NCBI GenBank assembly: GCA_937884175.1
Contig: CALGDB010000007.1
Coordinates: 1 to 39,288, forward strand
Direction: 5' to 3'
Length of the DNA: 39,288 bases
Source: an uncultured Flavobacteriales bacterium
GTDB lineage: Bacteria > Bacteroidota > Bacteroidia > Flavobacteriales_D > Sanyastnellaceae
The notes beneath the pieces were generated by a model, which was not told where the DNA came from, did not search any database, and saw nothing but the letters and a program-made list of their open reading frames with translations. A program made the translations under genes and the position numbers. Below are positions 1-32,352 of this stretch, piece by piece (position 1 is the first letter of the stretch; every line of letters begins with the position of its first letter).

Positions 1-2014
1 ATTTATCTCCAATGCCCTCGCCGTATTGATCTTCCAGGAAGCCGAAGTAATCGTCGCTAACGTAACTCCCTGTTGGACTGACGGAATTTTCGCTTTGGTA
101 CGTGATCACATAGGGAGAGGCTTCGAGGTTGACGCGGTTGGCGTACGTGCCGTCACCGAACAGCTGCAAATACCTCGGGGGCGTCCAACCTCCATCAAGA
201 GCACGGTCCCGCAACATCATCATCAACATCTTAATGGCCGTGGGGTCAATGCTGCCACTCGAAAATTCATCGAAAACCGTTCGTTGTGTCGTCACCAATA
301 CTTCCAAGCCATCATCGGCGTGCAAGGCAGCCAGCCGGTTCGCAGCCTCCAGGAAAAGTGGCCGGGTCACGATGACAAGATCAGCGCGTTCGACGGCATG
401 CAAATTGGAAGGCGCGACGAGTCCAGCGAAAGCCGGTTTGGGGAAGGCCGTCTGTGCAAAAGCGACAAAGGCCCGCGTCGTATCTGATTCGAACAACCAC
501 GTGACCCCGCCGTCCATCGCCCCGAGCTCGATTTCCCGGGGCTGCGCGCCATCGGTGATGTCCCAAACCCGCATCCCTTCCACGGCGCTGAACAGCTGGG
601 ATTCGGCGACTGCACCCATCGAAGCCGGGAAAGAGAAAGCGAGGGGGGCACCGTCAAATTTCAAATGGCAGGGTTGCTCAACGCGCAGGTAATCCAACCA
701 ACCCACTGCGGTGCTAACGCCTTTGTCGAACGCAACTTGAACCGACACCAACGCATCATCGGCTTCCAATCCGGTTTGCGATGTGGCTGTTCCGACCCCC
801 GATGCGCCGGCCAGGTTGGCAACGTTGCTGGTGGATGTGGAATTGGTGTAGGAAGGCGAGGCGGTGAACGCCACATCACCAGCGGACACCGAAAAGGAGC
901 TTTGAACTCCCATCGATTGGGCAGCAACCCGCGCTGAAATCCGCGCCGGATCGTCCGTGGGGTACGGCATGGCGAATGCAAATGTACGCTGGTTGACCGA
1001 ACCAAATGTCTCGCCAAACCACTCCCGTCCTGACCGGTTCGGGCTTTCCAATTCCTGTTCGTGAAACTGCACGTTCGTGTAGCGCGTATGAACTGTATCC
1101 TGCGCCCCGGTCACGGCAACTGCAGGAGTGATGCGACCCTCGTCTTGTTCCTGACCAATGGCCAAGAAATACCATGCTTTGTCCTCGTAGGGGTGGCGAA
1201 GGTGCTCCCATCTGGTGGCAGCGGAATTCCAGCCAATCCAGTCCGGACCCTGCCCCCAAAAAATCAATTCGTCGCCGTCGTCCCAGCTTCCGTCTTCACC
1301 CCCGGCAAAATCCGCAGCAACCGTACGCAGGCCGAGGGGTCGATTCTCAGAATTATCCATGGGCAGCAGTGTTCCGCCGTTGCCGAAAATATGCACATTG
1401 CTTGGATCAATGGTATCTGGATCAAAGCCGGCGTCAATCATCCAGGCTCGATCGATGCGGTACATTCCGGAATTGGGAATGGACAGCCGGAGAACGGTCC
1501 CCTCCGACAATGGGTGCGCTGCAGGCCAATCCCGCGTGCGGGCCCCGCTGGTAGTTGCATCCATTGCCCACCCGCGCCCGAAGGCACCGGACAGGTCCAG
1601 CAACCGCTCGTACACGCCTTTGCTCGCATTCCACCGCAGGAGCGGGCCTTTCCACTGGGCCGCATCGGCAATGGCATCCGCTGTCCACTGGCCCGCCGGC
1701 AGTTCCTCGTTGAGCAGTTGCCGCTGACGGCTGGTGAGCGATGATTCGGGGATTTCGGCCCACGATTCCGATCCGGCTAAAATTTGCCCGGTTTCCCATG
1801 CACTGGGCCACGGTGCCTCGTACACCCCCCATGGGATTTCATCCAACCAATGCCCTTCTTTAACGTTCCACTGTCCTACCGGTGCTTGTCCTTCCCTCCA
1901 CTGCACTTCAAACGCCGCCTGAATGACCTCTGGACCCTGATTTTCTTGGGAAAACAGCGGCATCAGACCTCCCGTCAATGCAATCAAAACAACGGAAAAG
2001 AAGTGGCGAATCAT
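1..2014 (-). CDS. porU: PorU-type T9SS C-terminal signal peptidase (gingipain-like), partial; 3' end lies beyond window position 1
   Basis: Manual minus-strand translation from ATG at 2014-2012 is open to position 2: MIRHFFSVVLIALTGGLMPLFSQ (signal peptide) ... LSIPNSGMYRIDRAWMIDAGFDPDTIDPSNVHIFGNGGTLLPMDN ... PPRYLQLFGDGTYANR ... VSDDYFGFLEDQYGEGIGDK. These motifs are typical of PorU N-terminal and peptidase C25 regions. Not in the ORF track because it is open at the window edge. Confidence 0.88.
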   Translation of the reverse strand, partial: MIRHFFSVVLIALTGGLMPLFSQENQGPEVIQAAFEVQWREGQAPVGQWNVKEGHWLDEIPWGVYEAPWPSAWETGQILAGSESWAEIPESSLTSRQRQLLNEELPAGQWTADAIADAAQWKGPLLRWNASKGVYERLLDLSGAFGRGWAMDATTSGARTRDWPAAHPLSEGTVLRLSIPNSGMYRIDRAWMIDAGFDPDTIDPSNVHIFGNGGTLLPMDNSENRPLGLRTVAADFAGGEDGSWDDGDELIFWGQGPDWIGWNSAATRWEHLRHPYEDKAWYFLAIGQEQDEGRITPAVAVTGAQDTVHTRYTNVQFHEQELESPNRSGREWFGETFGSVNQRTFAFAMPYPTDDPARISARVAAQSMGVQSSFSVSAGDVAFTASPSYTNSTSTSNVANLAGASGVGTATSQTGLEADDALVSVQVAFDKGVSTAVGWLDYLRVEQPCHLKFDGAPLAFSFPASMGAVAESQLFSAVEGMRVWDITDGAQPREIELGAMDGGVTWLFESDTTRAFVAFAQTAFPKPAFAGLVAPSNLHAVERADLVIVTRPLFLEAANRLAALHADDGLEVLVTTQRTVFDEFSSGSIDPTAIKMLMMMLRDRALDGGWTPPRYLQLFGDGTYANRVNLEASPYVITYQSENSVSPTGSYVSDDYFGFLEDQYGEGIGDK

Positions 2015-2183
2015 GGATGTTAATCTCAGGTTACGAAGGTGGTGAAAAAACAGAATGCAACGCAAAGGGCAAAACGCTCGTTAACTACAATTAGTATGAC
2101 ATTCGAAAAGTTGCACTCCGGTGGAATTGGAGAGTGGCATTCGATTTTTTCTTATTCTTGTAAATTCATTGGGAATCATCTTT

Positions 2184-3182
2184 ATGAAGCACCTCCTAGC
2201 AATCCCCGCTGCAGCCCTAATTTTGACCGCTGCATTTGTGAGTTGGACCGGAACCTCAGCTAAGGCTCAAGACCCTGAGTTTACGCAGTATTTCGCCAAT
2301 CCACTGTACTTGAACCCGGCCTTCGCTGGGTCTGCACGCTGCCCGCGCATGACCATGTCATATCGCAACCAATGGCCCGCAATGAGCGGTTCGTTTGTAA
2401 CCACCGCAGCGGCCTATGACCAACACGTTGAGACATTGTCCGGCGGATTGGGCTTGATCGTGATGAACGACCAAGCAGGCCGCGGGACGCTTTCCACGAC
2501 CACAGCAAGCGGTATCTACAGTTACCAACAAGCAGTGACCCGCAAGCTTTCGCTCAAAGCGGCTATGCAGGTCACCTATATGCAAAAATCATTGGACTGG
2601 GGGCGATTGACGTTTGGCGATATGATCGATCCGCGTCGGGGCTTTATTTACGAGACCCAAGACATTCCACGGGGCGGCATGGTGCAGGCCGTTGACTTCA
2701 GCACGGGCATCCTCGGTTTCACCGATAAGTACTACTTCGGTGCAGCCGTTCACCACCTAAACGAACCTAACGAATCCCTGGTGGTTGGCACCAGCCGCCT
2801 TCCAATGAAGTACACTATTCACGCTGGCGCCGTGCTTCCATTGCAGCGTTCCGTAACAGGTGTTGAGTCCACCATTTCACCAAACGTATTCTACCGCCGA
2901 CAAGGTGAGTTCCAGCAACTCAACTTGGGATTGTATGTAAACAAAGGCCCACTCGTCGGTGGCATTTGGTATCGTGGCATCATGTTTACGGATTACCGAG
3001 ACGCCTTCATCGTCACTTTGGGAATCAAATCTGATGTAGTCCAATTCGGCTACAGCTACGACTTGACCGTATCCGAATTGACTCCAGCTACGGGCGGGGC
3101 CCACGAAATTAGCATGACCATTCAATTCGATTGCCGCGGCAAACGTTCGAAGTTCCGAACAATAAACTGCCCGTCCTTCTAG
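2184..3182 (+). CDS. PorP/SprF family type IX secretion outer membrane protein
   Basis: ORF 2121..3182; likely start ATG 2184 (MKHLLAIPAAALILTAAFVSWTGTSAKAQDPEFTQYFANPLYLNPAFAGSARCPRM). The 'QDPxFTQYFxNPLYLNPAFAG' signature is characteristic of PorP/SprF. Confidence 0.92.
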   Translation: MKHLLAIPAAALILTAAFVSWTGTSAKAQDPEFTQYFANPLYLNPAFAGSARCPRMTMSYRNQWPAMSGSFVTTAAAYDQHVETLSGGLGLIVMNDQAGRGTLSTTTASGIYSYQQAVTRKLSLKAAMQVTYMQKSLDWGRLTFGDMIDPRRGFIYETQDIPRGGMVQAVDFSTGILGFTDKYYFGAAVHHLNEPNESLVVGTSRLPMKYTIHAGAVLPLQRSVTGVESTISPNVFYRRQGEFQQLNLGLYVNKGPLVGGIWYRGIMFTDYRDAFIVTLGIKSDVVQFGYSYDLTVSELTPATGGAHEISMTIQFDCRGKRSKFRTINCPSF

Positions 3183-9415: not shown

Positions 9416-12400
9416 TTACTCAGGGCAATCCGAACCGAACTGGGACAGGAAGAAGAGCAAGTCGGGCGTACCGACTTGACCGTCTTCGTTGACATCCGCA
9501 GGACAAGGATCGGTGAAGTCGAATTCACACGTTCCGTTTTCCATGGTCGCCGCTGCGTCGTAGTTGGTCGCATCCGCGTACGTACAGCCGTAGCAGTCGT
9601 ACGTGCAAGAACCGTCGTCGAAGAACGCACCTGAAGCGAAGTTGCATGCTGCAGCATCCACACAGCCGAAGGCCGAAGAGTTTGGCGCACCTGGGGTACC
9701 GTTATCCACCCAGCTAGCTTGCCAGTTGTCTGGATCTTCGTTATTCAGATCCGTCTGGATCAATTCCAAGGTTGAGCATCCACCATCGGGGCTCTGCACC
9801 AAGACATTACCCAATACGGCAACTGTCTGTGCTGGCCATGGATCCGCATCGTCGTATGTCACCGCATCAACCACGTTGCCGAAGCCGTCCTCGATACTAA
9901 CCCCTTCACCAGAGTTGGAGAAGTTGCCCAGATCCAATTGGAAAATCTGAACACCCAAACCACTGTAGTTGGCCGTACCCTCGTCAGATACCGTCATCAA
10001 AACGAATTCGCCTGCTGCGATTGATGTGCCATCAGGGAAGACATACCCGAGCTGTGGTGCTCCACTTGCCGTGTTGTAGAACTCGAAACCACCAATCTCG
10101 GCTGGCATGTCGCCGCCGTTGTAGATCTCGACGAACTCGTAGTCGAAATCATCGCCTTGGGCACTGCAGGGATTGTAGTGAATCTCGTTGATGACCAAGT
10201 TGGGCAACGTGTAGTAGCAATCCTCGTTGGTTGGGTTGTTGACGCCTTCCTGGTAGTTGAATGCCGCCGGATCATCGCAACCGCTGATGATGCACGAACC
10301 ATCATCCAAGGTAGCAGCAGGATCGTAGTTGTCTGCTGCCGGGTCAGTGCAACCAGGTGCATCCACACATGACCCGTCGTCTTCTTGCGCGTACGGATCG
10401 TAGTTACTGAACGAGGCCGTGGTGCAACCCAAGCGAACAACATCCGCTGCGTCACGTGGCAACAACTTCCAGGCGCCGTATGCGTAGAAGTTGGGTCCGA
10501 CCACGCGGTACGAACGTCCTTCTTCCAAAAGTGGTGCATACGTATTGCCGCCGTCAGCGGTCAGTGAATCCCCGATGGCATCGTATCCGATGTCATCGAT
10601 GGTACCAATGCCTGAACCGTCGTTCAGGTGCCACTCGCCGTAACCGGCGTCGGCATTGGTGCACTCACCGGTCATGCTAATCAATACGCACTCCCATTGC
10701 TCATCGTTGATGGCTGCGGTCGCGAGCATTTCAGCTGCCGGCAGGGCATTGCCCGAAGACAGGACTTCAGGTGTGGCCGCTTGAATCTGGCGCAAGCCGT
10801 ACACTTCAGTCACGTTACCCAAGATGGATACTTCGTCACCAAGGGCCACGCCGTCACCGATAACCCAGATGGCCGAGTTAGGCCCTGTACCGTCTTGGAT
10901 GACGTAAGATGCTTGGCCGGCCAATCCACCCGTTGGAGGGTAAGTCGCCGTCACGATTCCTTGCGTTTGCATTTGACCGCTCAAACCGCCTGACTGAATC
11001 TCCTGAATGGTGTAGTTGTCGATGTAGATGCACGAACCATCATCAGATGTTGCATTCTCATCGTAATTGACTGCGAATGGATCGGTGCAACCACCGGTCG
11101 AGGCCGCGCAAGAACCTGAGAAAGTGTGCATGCCCAAGTCACTCCAGTCGTTCTGATCGAGTACAATCCACTCGGAATCCAGGGCGTTGGTACCTGCAGA
11201 CATCGCCCAATCACCTCCGTTACCTGTGAAAACGAACTCGTTTCGCACGAGCGTGTGGTCCTTAGTCGCGTTGGCTACACCGGCCACTTCCCATCCTGAA
11301 CCGGGGTCGGGACCAATGGCTCCAATGATGTCAACCAATACCGTGTCATTGCCCGCAAGCTCGAACAAACCATACGCATCGTCTCCATTGGACAAGTATT
11401 GATGGGTAACGTCCGCCAACGCTAAAATGACGGAATCTGCACTAGGGTGAGCAACGATGTATGTGCCACCGGGTGCTATCTCAGCATCAAAAGGAAAGTT
11501 GAAGCTCAGGTAGTCAAATTGATCGCTGACAAAGGGGGCGTCCGGATCGTCGCATCCATTGCTGCAATTGCCTAGCATGAATTGGCTCAAGAAAACCGCA
11601 GTAGCCGTTGGGTTGTACAACTCGAGGTACTTGTTGTTTCCGCTGCCTTCAGCGTACTCTGAGAAGAAGATGCCGCACGACTCACCGGAGAATTCACAAG
11701 AACCGTCGTCGATGCCAGCACCCGCGTTGTAGTTCGAAGCATCTGCACTGGTGCAACCGTACAACAATGCATCCGCTTCTGAACGCGGTTGGATTTTGTA
11801 GTTACCGAACGAGTAATCGAGCGGACCCGTTACCTGCCACGTGCTCCCCGCTGTGACGTTGCCCGTGTCAATGGCATCGTAGCCGCGGTCGTCGATGCGG
11901 CATTCACCTGACGTATCGTCCACGCCCCACTCGCCGTAGCCGAGGCTTTCTGAGCTAACATCACCAGTTACTTGCACCAAGACGCCTTCCCACTGTTCGT
12001 CAGACGCAGCGGTGGCTGTGCTCAACACCTCTGGAGTTGGCAAAGCGGCTCCCTGCGCATTGATCACGACAGAGACACCCGTCAATTGGGTCAATCCGTA
12101 ATATTCGGCCACTGTTCCCGTGATTTCAATGTCGTCACCGACAACCACTGGTACGTTTGGACCGAACATCCAAATACCGCTGTATGGACCTTGGCCATCC
12201 TGGACACTCACCAACGAGCCAAAGACACCCGTGACAACACCGTTGGTCACCACCGTCGTACCTGTGTAAGCATCTGTCAATTGCCCTTCCTGGATGGCAG
12301 CGATCGCTGTCGTCGTTACTTCCAAGCAAGAACCATCATCGAAATCAGCTGCTTCGTTGTAGTTCGGTGCTGCCGCGTTCGTGCAACCACCAGTACCCAC

Positions 12401-13411
12401 CGTCACCGTCCCGACCATGCCCAATGCAGCGTGTGTACCAACTGAGCAGTCGTAAGAGTACACTCCGGGAATGGTAAAGGTGAAGCTGCCTATGCATACG
12501 GCTTCGCCGCTGGAACTAACAGGTGAGAAAAAGAAGTCTTCTGGGTTACCAAAGGACTCACCGGTCAACGTGTTGGTGGTACCGTTTGCGTTGTGTGAAC
12601 CGCCTACGTTTTCCCATACCACTGTGGTGCCAGGTTCGATGGCAAGGTCTTGCGGGCTGAAGTAGAATCCGCCAGTCGTGACGACGATACCGTCAACGTT
12701 GCATGAATTGTCAAATGTGCACGAGCCATCATCTTCTGTAGCGTCGGCATTGTAGTTGGACGCGTTTTCATTGGTGCAACCGGGGACTGCGGCTCCACAA
12801 TTTCCGGTGAAATCGTGTGAACCGAGGTAGTCCCATGTGTTTTGGTCGTAGACAATCCACTGGCTGTCTTCGGCATTGGTTCCTGCCGCGGTTGCCCAAT
12901 CGTATCCAACGCCTTGGGTAACCGTGCTCTTGCGCACCAACGTGTGGTCTTTTGTTGCAGCAGACTCTCCTGCCACGTCCCAACCCGAGCCGGGGTCTGC
13001 GTCCCAGTTTCCAATGACGTCCAGAATGGTGAATGCGTCTTGGGTTCCTTGTACCAGTGCATAGCCATCATCGCCGTTGGAGAGGTACTGGTGCGTTTCA
13101 TTCGCAAAAGCCAAAATTGCAGCATTTGCAGAGGGATGAGCAATCACATAAATCCCACCTGCAGCTATGGTCGCTCCTTCATCGAAGGCATTCCAGAATT
13201 CGTATTCACCGGGTACGGTCGGAGCATTGCTTGTGCTCGGGTAAGCGTAGCCGCTGAGGTCGATGGCCTCGTTGGTAGGGTTGTAAATTTCAAGGTACTT
13301 GTTATTGCTGCTCCCTTCGGCATATTCCGAGAAAAACAGCCCGCACTGCGCGGATCCAGCCAAGCTCGCTCCGAAGAACAAAGCCGCTAGCAACAGGTTG
13401 AGTGAACGCAT
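9416..13411 (-). CDS. Large secreted multidomain protein: three lamin-tail-like domains, cupredoxin domain, OB/DUF5689-like domains, nine Cys linkers, single dockerin-like C-terminal motif
   Basis: 1331 aa with signal peptide MRSLNLLLAALFFGASLAGSAQ. LTD-like segments CGLFFSEYAEGSSNNKYLEIYNPT, CGIFFSEYAEGSGNNKYLELYNPT and LVINEIHYNPC...YEFVEIYN. Linkers of type GCTDPAADNYDPAATLDDGSC. Cupredoxin-like VVWENVGGSHNANGTTNT...YSYDCSVGTHAALGMVGTVTVG. C-terminus CPADVNEDGQVGTPDLLFFLSQFGSDCPE. Confidence 0.88.
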   Translation of the reverse strand: MRSLNLLLAALFFGASLAGSAQCGLFFSEYAEGSSNNKYLEIYNPTNEAIDLSGYAYPSTSNAPTVPGEYEFWNAFDEGATIAAGGIYVIAHPSANAAILAFANETHQYLSNGDDGYALVQGTQDAFTILDVIGNWDADPGSGWDVAGESAATKDHTLVRKSTVTQGVGYDWATAAGTNAEDSQWIVYDQNTWDYLGSHDFTGNCGAAVPGCTNENASNYNADATEDDGSCTFDNSCNVDGIVVTTGGFYFSPQDLAIEPGTTVVWENVGGSHNANGTTNTLTGESFGNPEDFFFSPVSSSGEAVCIGSFTFTIPGVYSYDCSVGTHAALGMVGTVTVGTGGCTNAAAPNYNEAADFDDGSCLEVTTTAIAAIQEGQLTDAYTGTTVVTNGVVTGVFGSLVSVQDGQGPYSGIWMFGPNVPVVVGDDIEITGTVAEYYGLTQLTGVSVVINAQGAALPTPEVLSTATAASDEQWEGVLVQVTGDVSSESLGYGEWGVDDTSGECRIDDRGYDAIDTGNVTAGSTWQVTGPLDYSFGNYKIQPRSEADALLYGCTSADASNYNAGAGIDDGSCEFSGESCGIFFSEYAEGSGNNKYLELYNPTATAVFLSQFMLGNCSNGCDDPDAPFVSDQFDYLSFNFPFDAEIAPGGTYIVAHPSADSVILALADVTHQYLSNGDDAYGLFELAGNDTVLVDIIGAIGPDPGSGWEVAGVANATKDHTLVRNEFVFTGNGGDWAMSAGTNALDSEWIVLDQNDWSDLGMHTFSGSCAASTGGCTDPFAVNYDENATSDDGSCIYIDNYTIQEIQSGGLSGQMQTQGIVTATYPPTGGLAGQASYVIQDGTGPNSAIWVIGDGVALGDEVSILGNVTEVYGLRQIQAATPEVLSSGNALPAAEMLATAAINDEQWECVLISMTGECTNADAGYGEWHLNDGSGIGTIDDIGYDAIGDSLTADGGNTYAPLLEEGRSYRVVGPNFYAYGAWKLLPRDAADVVRLGCTTASFSNYDPYAQEDDGSCVDAPGCTDPAADNYDPAATLDDGSCIISGCDDPAAFNYQEGVNNPTNEDCYYTLPNLVINEIHYNPCSAQGDDFDYEFVEIYNGGDMPAEIGGFEFYNTASGAPQLGYVFPDGTSIAAGEFVLMTVSDEGTANYSGLGVQIFQLDLGNFSNSGEGVSIEDGFGNVVDAVTYDDADPWPAQTVAVLGNVLVQSPDGGCSTLELIQTDLNNEDPDNWQASWVDNGTPGAPNSSAFGCVDAAACNFASGAFFDDGSCTYDCYGCTYADATNYDAAATMENGTCEFDFTDPCPADVNEDGQVGTPDLLFFLSQFGSDCPE
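9530..12782 (-). repeat. Nine dispersed intragenic repeats encoding GC(T/D/V)xxxAxNYxxxAxxxDDGSCxx linkers
   Basis: Approximate positions: 12717-12782, 12325-12392, 11696-11760, 11029-11092, 10369-10431, 10292-10352, 10213-10282 (degenerate), 9606-9669, 9530-9595. The recurring DNA signature is '...gaaccatcatc...gttgtagtt...gtgcaacc'. Confidence 0.85.
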
Positions 13412-30682: not shown

Positions 30683-32251
30683 TTATGAAATGGGGTCCAA
30701 TTCCACCCAAGGTATGATCACCTCTTCTAAGGAGATGCCGCCGTGCTGGAACGTATCCCGGAAGTACTGGGCAAAGTGGTTGTAGTTGTTGGGGTAAACA
30801 AGGAAGTCGTCCTCCCGAGCAAAGATGTAGGCACTGCTCACATTGGGGCGCGGCAACCCCGCCTCTTCCGGTTGGCGAATGGCAAACACATCGCCGCCAC
30901 CATAGCCCAGATTTCGTCCCACCTTGTATCGTAAGTTGGTATTGGTGCTGCGTTCCCCCTTCACTTGCAACGGATTGGCGACACGCACCGTGCCATGATC
31001 GGTGGTGATGATTACGCGCGCGCCGCGTTCGGCCATCAGGTTCAATAGGTCCTTCAACGCGCTGTGCTCAAACCACGATAAGGTCAGTGAACGGTAGGCA
31101 GCCTCATCCTCGGCCAACTCCTTCAGTACCTCCATCTCCGTGCGGGCATGAGACAGCATGTCGACGAAGTTGTAGACGACGGCTGTCAATTGGTTGCCGT
31201 ACGTTTGGTGAAACTGGTCCACCATCTTCTTGCCTGCCGCCAAGTTCGTGATCTTGTGGTACGAGGATTTGCCATTGAAATTCATGCGCTTCAGCAGCGC
31301 TTGGAACAACTCGCCTTCGAATTTATTCTTGCTCCCCTCCTCGTCTTCTCCAATCCAGTATTGCGGGTACACCCGCGCGATTTCTGCTGGGGAAAGCCCC
31401 GCAAAAAGCGCATTGCGCGCGTACTGCGTGGCGGTTGGAAGCATCGAGAAATACGTCTCATTTTGGGCCACGCGGAACCGGTTCAGAAGCAGTGGCTCAA
31501 TCATTTTCCACTGGTCGAGGCGCAAGTTGTCGATCACGACGAGGTAGACGGGTCGGTCGTCGCCCGCCTCGGACCACACCCGTGGCAACTTGGTGGGCAG
31601 CAACCGGTGCGAAAGAACGGGCGTCTCTTCCCCGGGGCCAGCCATCCACTCCGCGTAGTTGGACTCGTAGAACTTGGCAAACTGGCGGTTGGCGTCCTTG
31701 AACTGCATCTCCAAGATGTCCGACATGCCCGCATCTTCCGACTGCTCCAACTCGAGCTTCCAATGCACCAAGCGCTGAAAAATGGACGTCCAATCCGATG
31801 CATCCAGTCGGTCCATGAGCTGCATGGAAATCTCGCGGAATTCGCGCTGGTAGTCCGACATGGCTTTTTCGCTGACCAGTCGACGCTCGTCGAGGTTCTT
31901 CTTGATCGCGAGTAAGATCTGATTGGGGTTGACCGGCTTGATCAAGTAATCGCTGATTTTGGAGCCGATGGCTTCCTCCATAATGTGTTCCTCCTCACTC
32001 TTGGTTATCATGATGACCGGCAAATGAGGCCGCTGGTCCTTGATACGAGCGAGCGTCTCCAGCCCGTTCAAGCCGGGCATTTGCTCGTCCAAAAAAACCA
32101 AGTCAAATACCTCAGCCCCGAGCTTTTCGAGCGCTTCAACACCGCTGTTTACAGCCGTCACGTGAAACCCTTTGCCCTCCAAGAACAAGAGGTGCGGCTT
32201 AAGCAAATCAATTTCGTCGTCGGCCCAAAGGATGCGTGGAGTTCTCTGCAT
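30683..32251 (-). CDS. porX: PorX: T9SS-regulating response regulator with PglZ domain
   Basis: MQRTPRILWADDEIDLLKPHLLFLEGKGFHV...DLVFLDEQMPGLNGLETLARIK...VIMITKSEEE...ISDYLIKPVNPNQIL (receiver); PglZ-like VYLVVIDNLRLDQWKMIEPLL...TYFSMLPTATQYARNALFAGLSP...VIITTDHGTVRV. ATG 32251 preferred. Confidence 0.93.
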   Translation of the reverse strand: MQRTPRILWADDEIDLLKPHLLFLEGKGFHVTAVNSGVEALEKLGAEVFDLVFLDEQMPGLNGLETLARIKDQRPHLPVIMITKSEEEHIMEEAIGSKISDYLIKPVNPNQILLAIKKNLDERRLVSEKAMSDYQREFREISMQLMDRLDASDWTSIFQRLVHWKLELEQSEDAGMSDILEMQFKDANRQFAKFYESNYAEWMAGPGEETPVLSHRLLPTKLPRVWSEAGDDRPVYLVVIDNLRLDQWKMIEPLLLNRFRVAQNETYFSMLPTATQYARNALFAGLSPAEIARVYPQYWIGEDEEGSKNKFEGELFQALLKRMNFNGKSSYHKITNLAAGKKMVDQFHQTYGNQLTAVVYNFVDMLSHARTEMEVLKELAEDEAAYRSLTLSWFEHSALKDLLNLMAERGARVIITTDHGTVRVANPLQVKGERSTNTNLRYKVGRNLGYGGGDVFAIRQPEEAGLPRPNVSSAYIFAREDDFLVYPNNYNHFAQYFRDTFQHGGISLEEVIIPWVELDPIS

Positions 32252-32268
32252 AAATGAAATCGTCTCTT

Positions 32269-32276
32269 CAAAAATA
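32269..32276 (-). promoter_or_regulatory. Candidate -7 element (TAnnTTTG) upstream of porX
   Basis: Minus-strand TATTTTTG exact match, 17 nt upstream of the porX ATG. Confidence 0.45.
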
Positions 32277-32352
32277 CGCGCTACCGCTTTCGACAGGTTA
32301 ACTTGCGCGGGGAATAAATGCACCAACACGGCAATTCATATGCCCGGAGTTC

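Follow-up and report, generated by a model that had tools for sequence, protein, structure and literature searches.

The tail gene and its surroundings

The window is the whole stretch of DNA that was analysed, 39,288 nucleotides in length, and it begins within porU. This partial PorU gene (Peptidase_C25; 26..376, minus strand) is cut by the contig end. PorU is split over two contigs in the assembly, between positions 1-376 of the window and contig C184, which holds the remainder. A PorP/SprF-family protein, belonging to a T9SS shuttle family, is encoded at 2121..3182 on the plus strand (PF11751, E 1e-62). A PorX-like regulator with receiver and PglZ domains is encoded at 30683..32329 on the minus strand. 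A sequence-only reading of this DNA had named PorU, PorX and PorP/SprF as encoded by the genome, and the window itself holds counterparts of all three, PorU only in part.

The gene of interest lies at 9416..13411 on the minus strand. Pfam and NCBIfam domains, together with the sequence, describe a secreted protein of 1331 amino acids. Its parts are a Sec signal peptide (..GSAQ before C), LTD (lamin-tail) domains, a plastocyanin-like domain, GCTxxxAxNYxxxATxDDGSC repeats and, at the extreme C-terminus, a short tail, CPADVNEDGQVGTPDLLFFLSQFGSDCPE. The tail is read from codons 9505..9419 (9419..9505, minus strand), and the stop codon occupies 9418..9416 on the same strand.

This tail resembles one half of a dockerin, with a cysteine on either side of a single unit. 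Sequence and an AlphaFold2 model place a complete 12-residue F-hand-type loop, DVNEDGQVGTPD, and the helix after it (DLLFFLSQF) at 9437..9496 on the minus strand. The loop has the form D1 x N3 x D5 G ... D12. Calcium-coordinating residues are present at positions 1, 3, 5 and 12, and metal binding is predicted from them. Type I and type II dockerins are defined by two repeats, so the window tail, with one F-hand repeat, falls outside that definition. Its score against the NCBI model NF041540 is 22.4 bits, under the curated cut-off of 29 bits, and a Pfam search of the 1331-residue protein did not report PF00404 (dockerin). Pfam and NCBIfam searches of the same protein also found neither the type A T9SS domain (PF18962/TIGR04183) nor the type B domain (TIGR04131). 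The sequence-only reading had described just such a Cys-bracketed dockerin-like unit at the C-terminus and no canonical type A or B domain; its sequence and coordinates are exact, and the absence of both domains is borne out.

The PorP/SprF gene is about 6 kb from the tail gene, with other genes in between. The window protein lacks the marks of a type B T9SS domain: it has no TIGR04131 match and no PorP/SprF gene directly downstream. In several genomes one contig holds both porU and a tail open reading frame (ORF), roughly 10 kb apart (for instance G056 C36, G172 C17 and G068 C16), which suggests that the neighbourhood of the window's tail protein and porU is conserved among related genomes.

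A tail shared by exported proteins

The tail recurs in its own genome far above chance. With the 33-residue window tail as query, 42 places were found, the best other C-terminus at E 1e-10, and the tail is present on 31 ORFs, at or close to their end. The proposal that other C-termini of the genome share it is therefore upheld. The type A domain coexists with it, at about 57 places over the cut-off.

The position of the tail is strict. Among the loci compared, there were 102 distinct tail ORFs with a stop codon, and in 99 of them the last tail unit lies at most 3 residues from the C-terminus. One of the three exceptions (L062) ends in a more divergent unit that scores below the threshold. None of the 102 carries a type A domain as well. 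In L064, a plastocyanin-like protein of 188 residues on own contig C181, the tail is degenerate (..LLSAFGQSL) and has lost the final cysteine.

A test for enrichment among signal-peptide proteins had also been proposed. All 20 own tail ORFs with a visible start begin with a hydrophobic signal for export, and in most of them the cleavage site is of the AQ type, as judged by inspection and not by a proper predictor. A crude automatic rule is passed by 19 of the 20, and by 5 of 17 control genes as well; the twentieth tail ORF fails it yet has the strongest hydrophobic segment.

On five own contigs (C275, C165, C109, C205 and C170; L047, L042, L051, L060 and L053), tail genes directly adjoin frames on the same strand that have a terminal type A domain, an arrangement like that of mixed operons.

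Single and double tails

Tails come with one unit or with two. In the 50 single tails, C8, D11, D22, L24 and C34 are invariant; in the numbering of the loop, D1 and D12 are invariant, and D5 and G6 are conserved in at least 90%. In the 60 double tails, four cysteines and loop aspartates are invariant. Both sets were selected by profile, and such a selection by itself leads one to expect some conservation.

In an alignment, the single tail falls on the second half of the double one. Its AlphaFold2 model (pLDDT 86) consists of a loop and a single helix (residues 20-28 of the 36-residue tail) and finds no significant structural match in the PDB. The double tail is predicted as two loop-helix units (pLDDT 85). 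The top PDB match of this model in Foldseek is the dockerin 2y3n_B (E 5e-4, TM 0.80/0.87, rmsd 1.4 A), and nearly all remaining matches are dockerins. The models thus predict that the double tail folds as a true dockerin, of which the single tail would be one half. The description as a one-copy half-repeat holds for the window tail; it does not extend to the family, in which many members have two units and a predicted complete dockerin.

A Cys-bracketed dockerin of two units is already known to NCBI as NF041540, the "GC-type dockerin", a term that our literature search did not find in any paper. Double tails share its two Cys-bracketed loop-helix units and align over the whole model, with scores of 16.9-37.0 bits and two of five over the cut-off of 29 bits. 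Single tails, including that of the window, differ in covering half of the model, and they fail its cut-off at 21-22 bits.

Could the tail simply be a dockerin of the cellulosome kind, held by a scaffold with classical cohesins? The predicted fold, the 12-residue calcium-type loops, the sequence matches to dockerins and the two double tails that pass NF041540 are what type I/II cellulosome dockerins (PF00404; PDB 2y3n_B) would offer. However, the tails here have invariant cysteine clamps, one-unit forms and a strict terminal position, and no classical cohesin (PF00963) is found in the genome or the genus. The window tail itself, half a dockerin in extent, is passed over by both NF041540 and PF00404. 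An ordinary cellulosomal dockerin is therefore very improbable.

Distribution

The tail has expanded in one Flavobacteriales family and is nearly absent elsewhere. In a profile search of 249 genomes of the order, genomes of the window's family often have at least 33 tail places, although some of its genera have only 1-2; outside the family there are 0-3 per genome. Across the phylum, sampled with 346 genomes, the tail was confined to two genomes of the window's family, one further genome of the order and a single marginal case. The named relatives that bear it are Flavobacteriales metagenome-assembled genomes (MAGs). A contig titled Euryarchaeota archaeon (PBNL01000050.1; L205) encodes a double-tailed protease that is 73% identical to its Flavobacteriales counterpart, and is probably from a mis-binned or mislabelled MAG.

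Exchange with the T9SS type A domain

The same protein bodies can end either in the tail or in a type A domain. An example is a trypsin-like protease. In the window's genus, and in some of the sister genera, its body ends in the double tail, whereas a type A domain takes that place in paralogues, in other genera of the same family and outside the family. In a tree of the bodies alone, with the tails removed, the 25 tail-bearing proteases group in a single clade (99/96), next to 54 that have the T9SS domain. A second example is a body that we take to be of the choice-of-anchor B type, by recognition of the family and not from a tool result. Its tree, also built without tails, has at least two changes of ending. 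Within the window's own genome, tail proteins have paralogues with a T9SS domain, for example with 49% identity over 417 residues. The tail and the type A domain (TIGR04183/PF18962) are thus alike in occupying the same place on the same bodies and in coexisting in one genome. They differ in having no similarity of sequence or fold, and they never end the same ORF together.

The sequence-only reading had suggested a non-canonical C-terminal tag common to a family of surface proteins. For a family of exported proteins this is supported: the tag stands where the T9SS domain is found on the same bodies. Three choice-of-anchor-B-like proteins of the same family (L281, L282 and L288) have a third ending, DALGREV..NQ..LYSDGSVEK.., which matches neither the tail profile nor the local type A profile.

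The main alternative is that the tail itself is a further T9SS sorting signal. The translocon, or a shuttle like PorV or PorP, would read the dockerin-like unit and carry the cargo across the outer membrane. The known T9SS signals, types A, B and C, are served by PorV or PorP/SprF as shuttles (PMC10202324, PMC12618676), and they show that the system accepts unlike signals with dedicated shuttles. The tail takes the place of one of them, at the extreme C-terminus, and its genomes encode the system: among 96 genomes of the window's family, Peptidase_C25/PorU was found in 92 and PorP/SprF in all 96. A recognisable cohesin is also mostly missing from tail-rich genomes. Against such a signal, a loop-helix unit of 28 residues bears little likeness to the type A domain, which is rich in beta structure. 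Copy numbers of PorU and PorP/SprF show no rise with tail number, and a PorP/SprF relative shares a contig with a tail gene on only two of the fetched own contigs. A direct sorting signal is, on this evidence, unlikely, but it stays a serious rival because of the strict terminal position of the tail and the missing cohesin.

Two expansions of T9SS genes were considered and rejected. For a dedicated second PorU sortase, Peptidase_C25 counts are 1-3 and do not track tail richness. PorP/SprF has 3-8 copies in the window's genus and genera g11-g13 and up to 18 in others, and across family genomes its copy number does not track tail richness either.

A conserved gene pair

In tail-poor genera and in other families, a lone tail is mostly found on one beta-helix-type protein. 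From a reading of the sequences, its body appears to be of the same kind as a tail protein on own contig C156. The gene directly after it, on the same strand, encodes a shared N-terminal domain in 17 of 17 outgroup loci, with a gap of -35 to +65 nt between the two frames. All 14 complete partner products end in a type A T9SS domain; the other three are cut by the edge of the fetched sequence.

A divergent cohesin-like domain is found in 10 of the 17 partner genes, and in four lineages the partner has none that was detected. Often a third gene encodes another cohesin-like domain together with a type A domain, and several partners also have a weak internal dockerin match. In one case a related domain is encoded by the gene that immediately precedes a lone-tail gene. 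This domain scores 31.3 bits against the Pfam cohesin cut-off of 24.1, another scores 17.8 bits, and two further ones give nothing against Pfam cohesin. Two sets of these domains match each other at 97.9%. Since PDB profile searches returned noise only, the assignment rests on the Pfam scores and this mutual match, and the domains are candidate cohesins, with weak to moderate confidence from sequence.

The sequence-only reading had asked for a cohesin-like partner. One exists beside the lone-tail gene in related genomes, but none was found in the window's own genome. There, PF00963 (cohesin) has no match at E<=10, and local cohesin-like profiles match none of 62 own type-A-domain ORFs nor the rest of the fetched own stretches. 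The window's genus has no PF00963 match either, and other tail-rich genera have few and weak ones. The partner's N-terminal domain does have divergent relatives in the own genome, and the proteins that carry them end in either the tail or the type A domain.

This lack of a partner in the own genome, by PF00963 and by local profiles, would suit another role. The tail could be a mere end cap, stabilised by calcium and disulfides, that shields proteins of the periplasm or secreted ones against proteolysis, and the swapped proteins would then have moved compartment. The conserved loop aspartates and cysteines fit a stabilising cap. However, a cap accounts neither for the fact that proteases and other large exported proteins have repeatedly exchanged the tail and the T9SS domain nor for the conserved operon with a T9SS-domain partner, and we consider it improbable.

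A possible mechanism

The exchanges and the operon speak for a surface tag used in place of the T9SS domain. For docking, the reasons are the predicted dockerin fold and the cohesin-like domains encoded nearby. The favoured reading, to which we would give an even chance, is that the tail works as a docking tag: it takes over from the T9SS domain and, in a calcium-dependent way, fastens cargo to surface partners that the T9SS exports. The tail would then be a minimal module of the dockerin family, with one or two loop-helix units that bind calcium and are each held by a pair of cysteines. Cargo proteins would be made with a Sec signal peptide and would have the tail in place of a type A domain as an alternative C-terminal surface tag. 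They would be held at the cell surface by calcium-dependent docking of the tail to partners that carry a type A domain and are exported by the T9SS. Perhaps cargo and partner cross the outer membrane together.

Docking has difficulties of its own. No cohesin was detected in the own genome, and matches in tail-rich genera are few and weak. Docking alone leaves passage through the outer membrane unexplained, and a position strictly at the very end exceeds what docking needs. The idea of a sorting, anchoring or docking tag is sustained in that the tag is family-wide and at the place of the T9SS domain; of its variants, docking is an even bet and direct sorting is less likely.

A more specific version is possible, with the balance somewhat against it. 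This is a T9SS-coupled cohesin-dockerin display, in which dozens of cargos have traded the T9SS domain for a 28-residue half-dockerin and ride on, or dock to, T9SS-exported partners with cohesin-like or related receptor domains. If so, the tag would be unusually small for a module of the dockerin type and would add a class to the surface signals of Bacteroidota. A search for T9SS cargo that relies on type A, B and C domains would overlook the tail proteins, here about 30 beside about 57 of type A. Should the tag work as proposed, a whole family of marine Flavobacteriales would use docking to display much of its surface proteome, and a tag of 28 residues could be tested and put to use for display. 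As the gene pair is conserved in other families of Flavobacteriales, the question can be tested directly in strains that grow in culture.

Dockerin-cohesin docking at the surface has been proposed outside cellulose degradation before. One case is the Planctosome model for freshwater Planctomycetes (PMC6461901), and another is a cellulosome-like complex of Cloacimonadota, in which the scaffoldin has a C-terminal domain for surface attachment (PMC8542988). In these proposals, peptidases or other enzymes with dockerins would dock to surface proteins that bear cohesins. The present case differs from both in that each genome has dozens of proteins on which a tail of one or two units takes the place of the T9SS domain.
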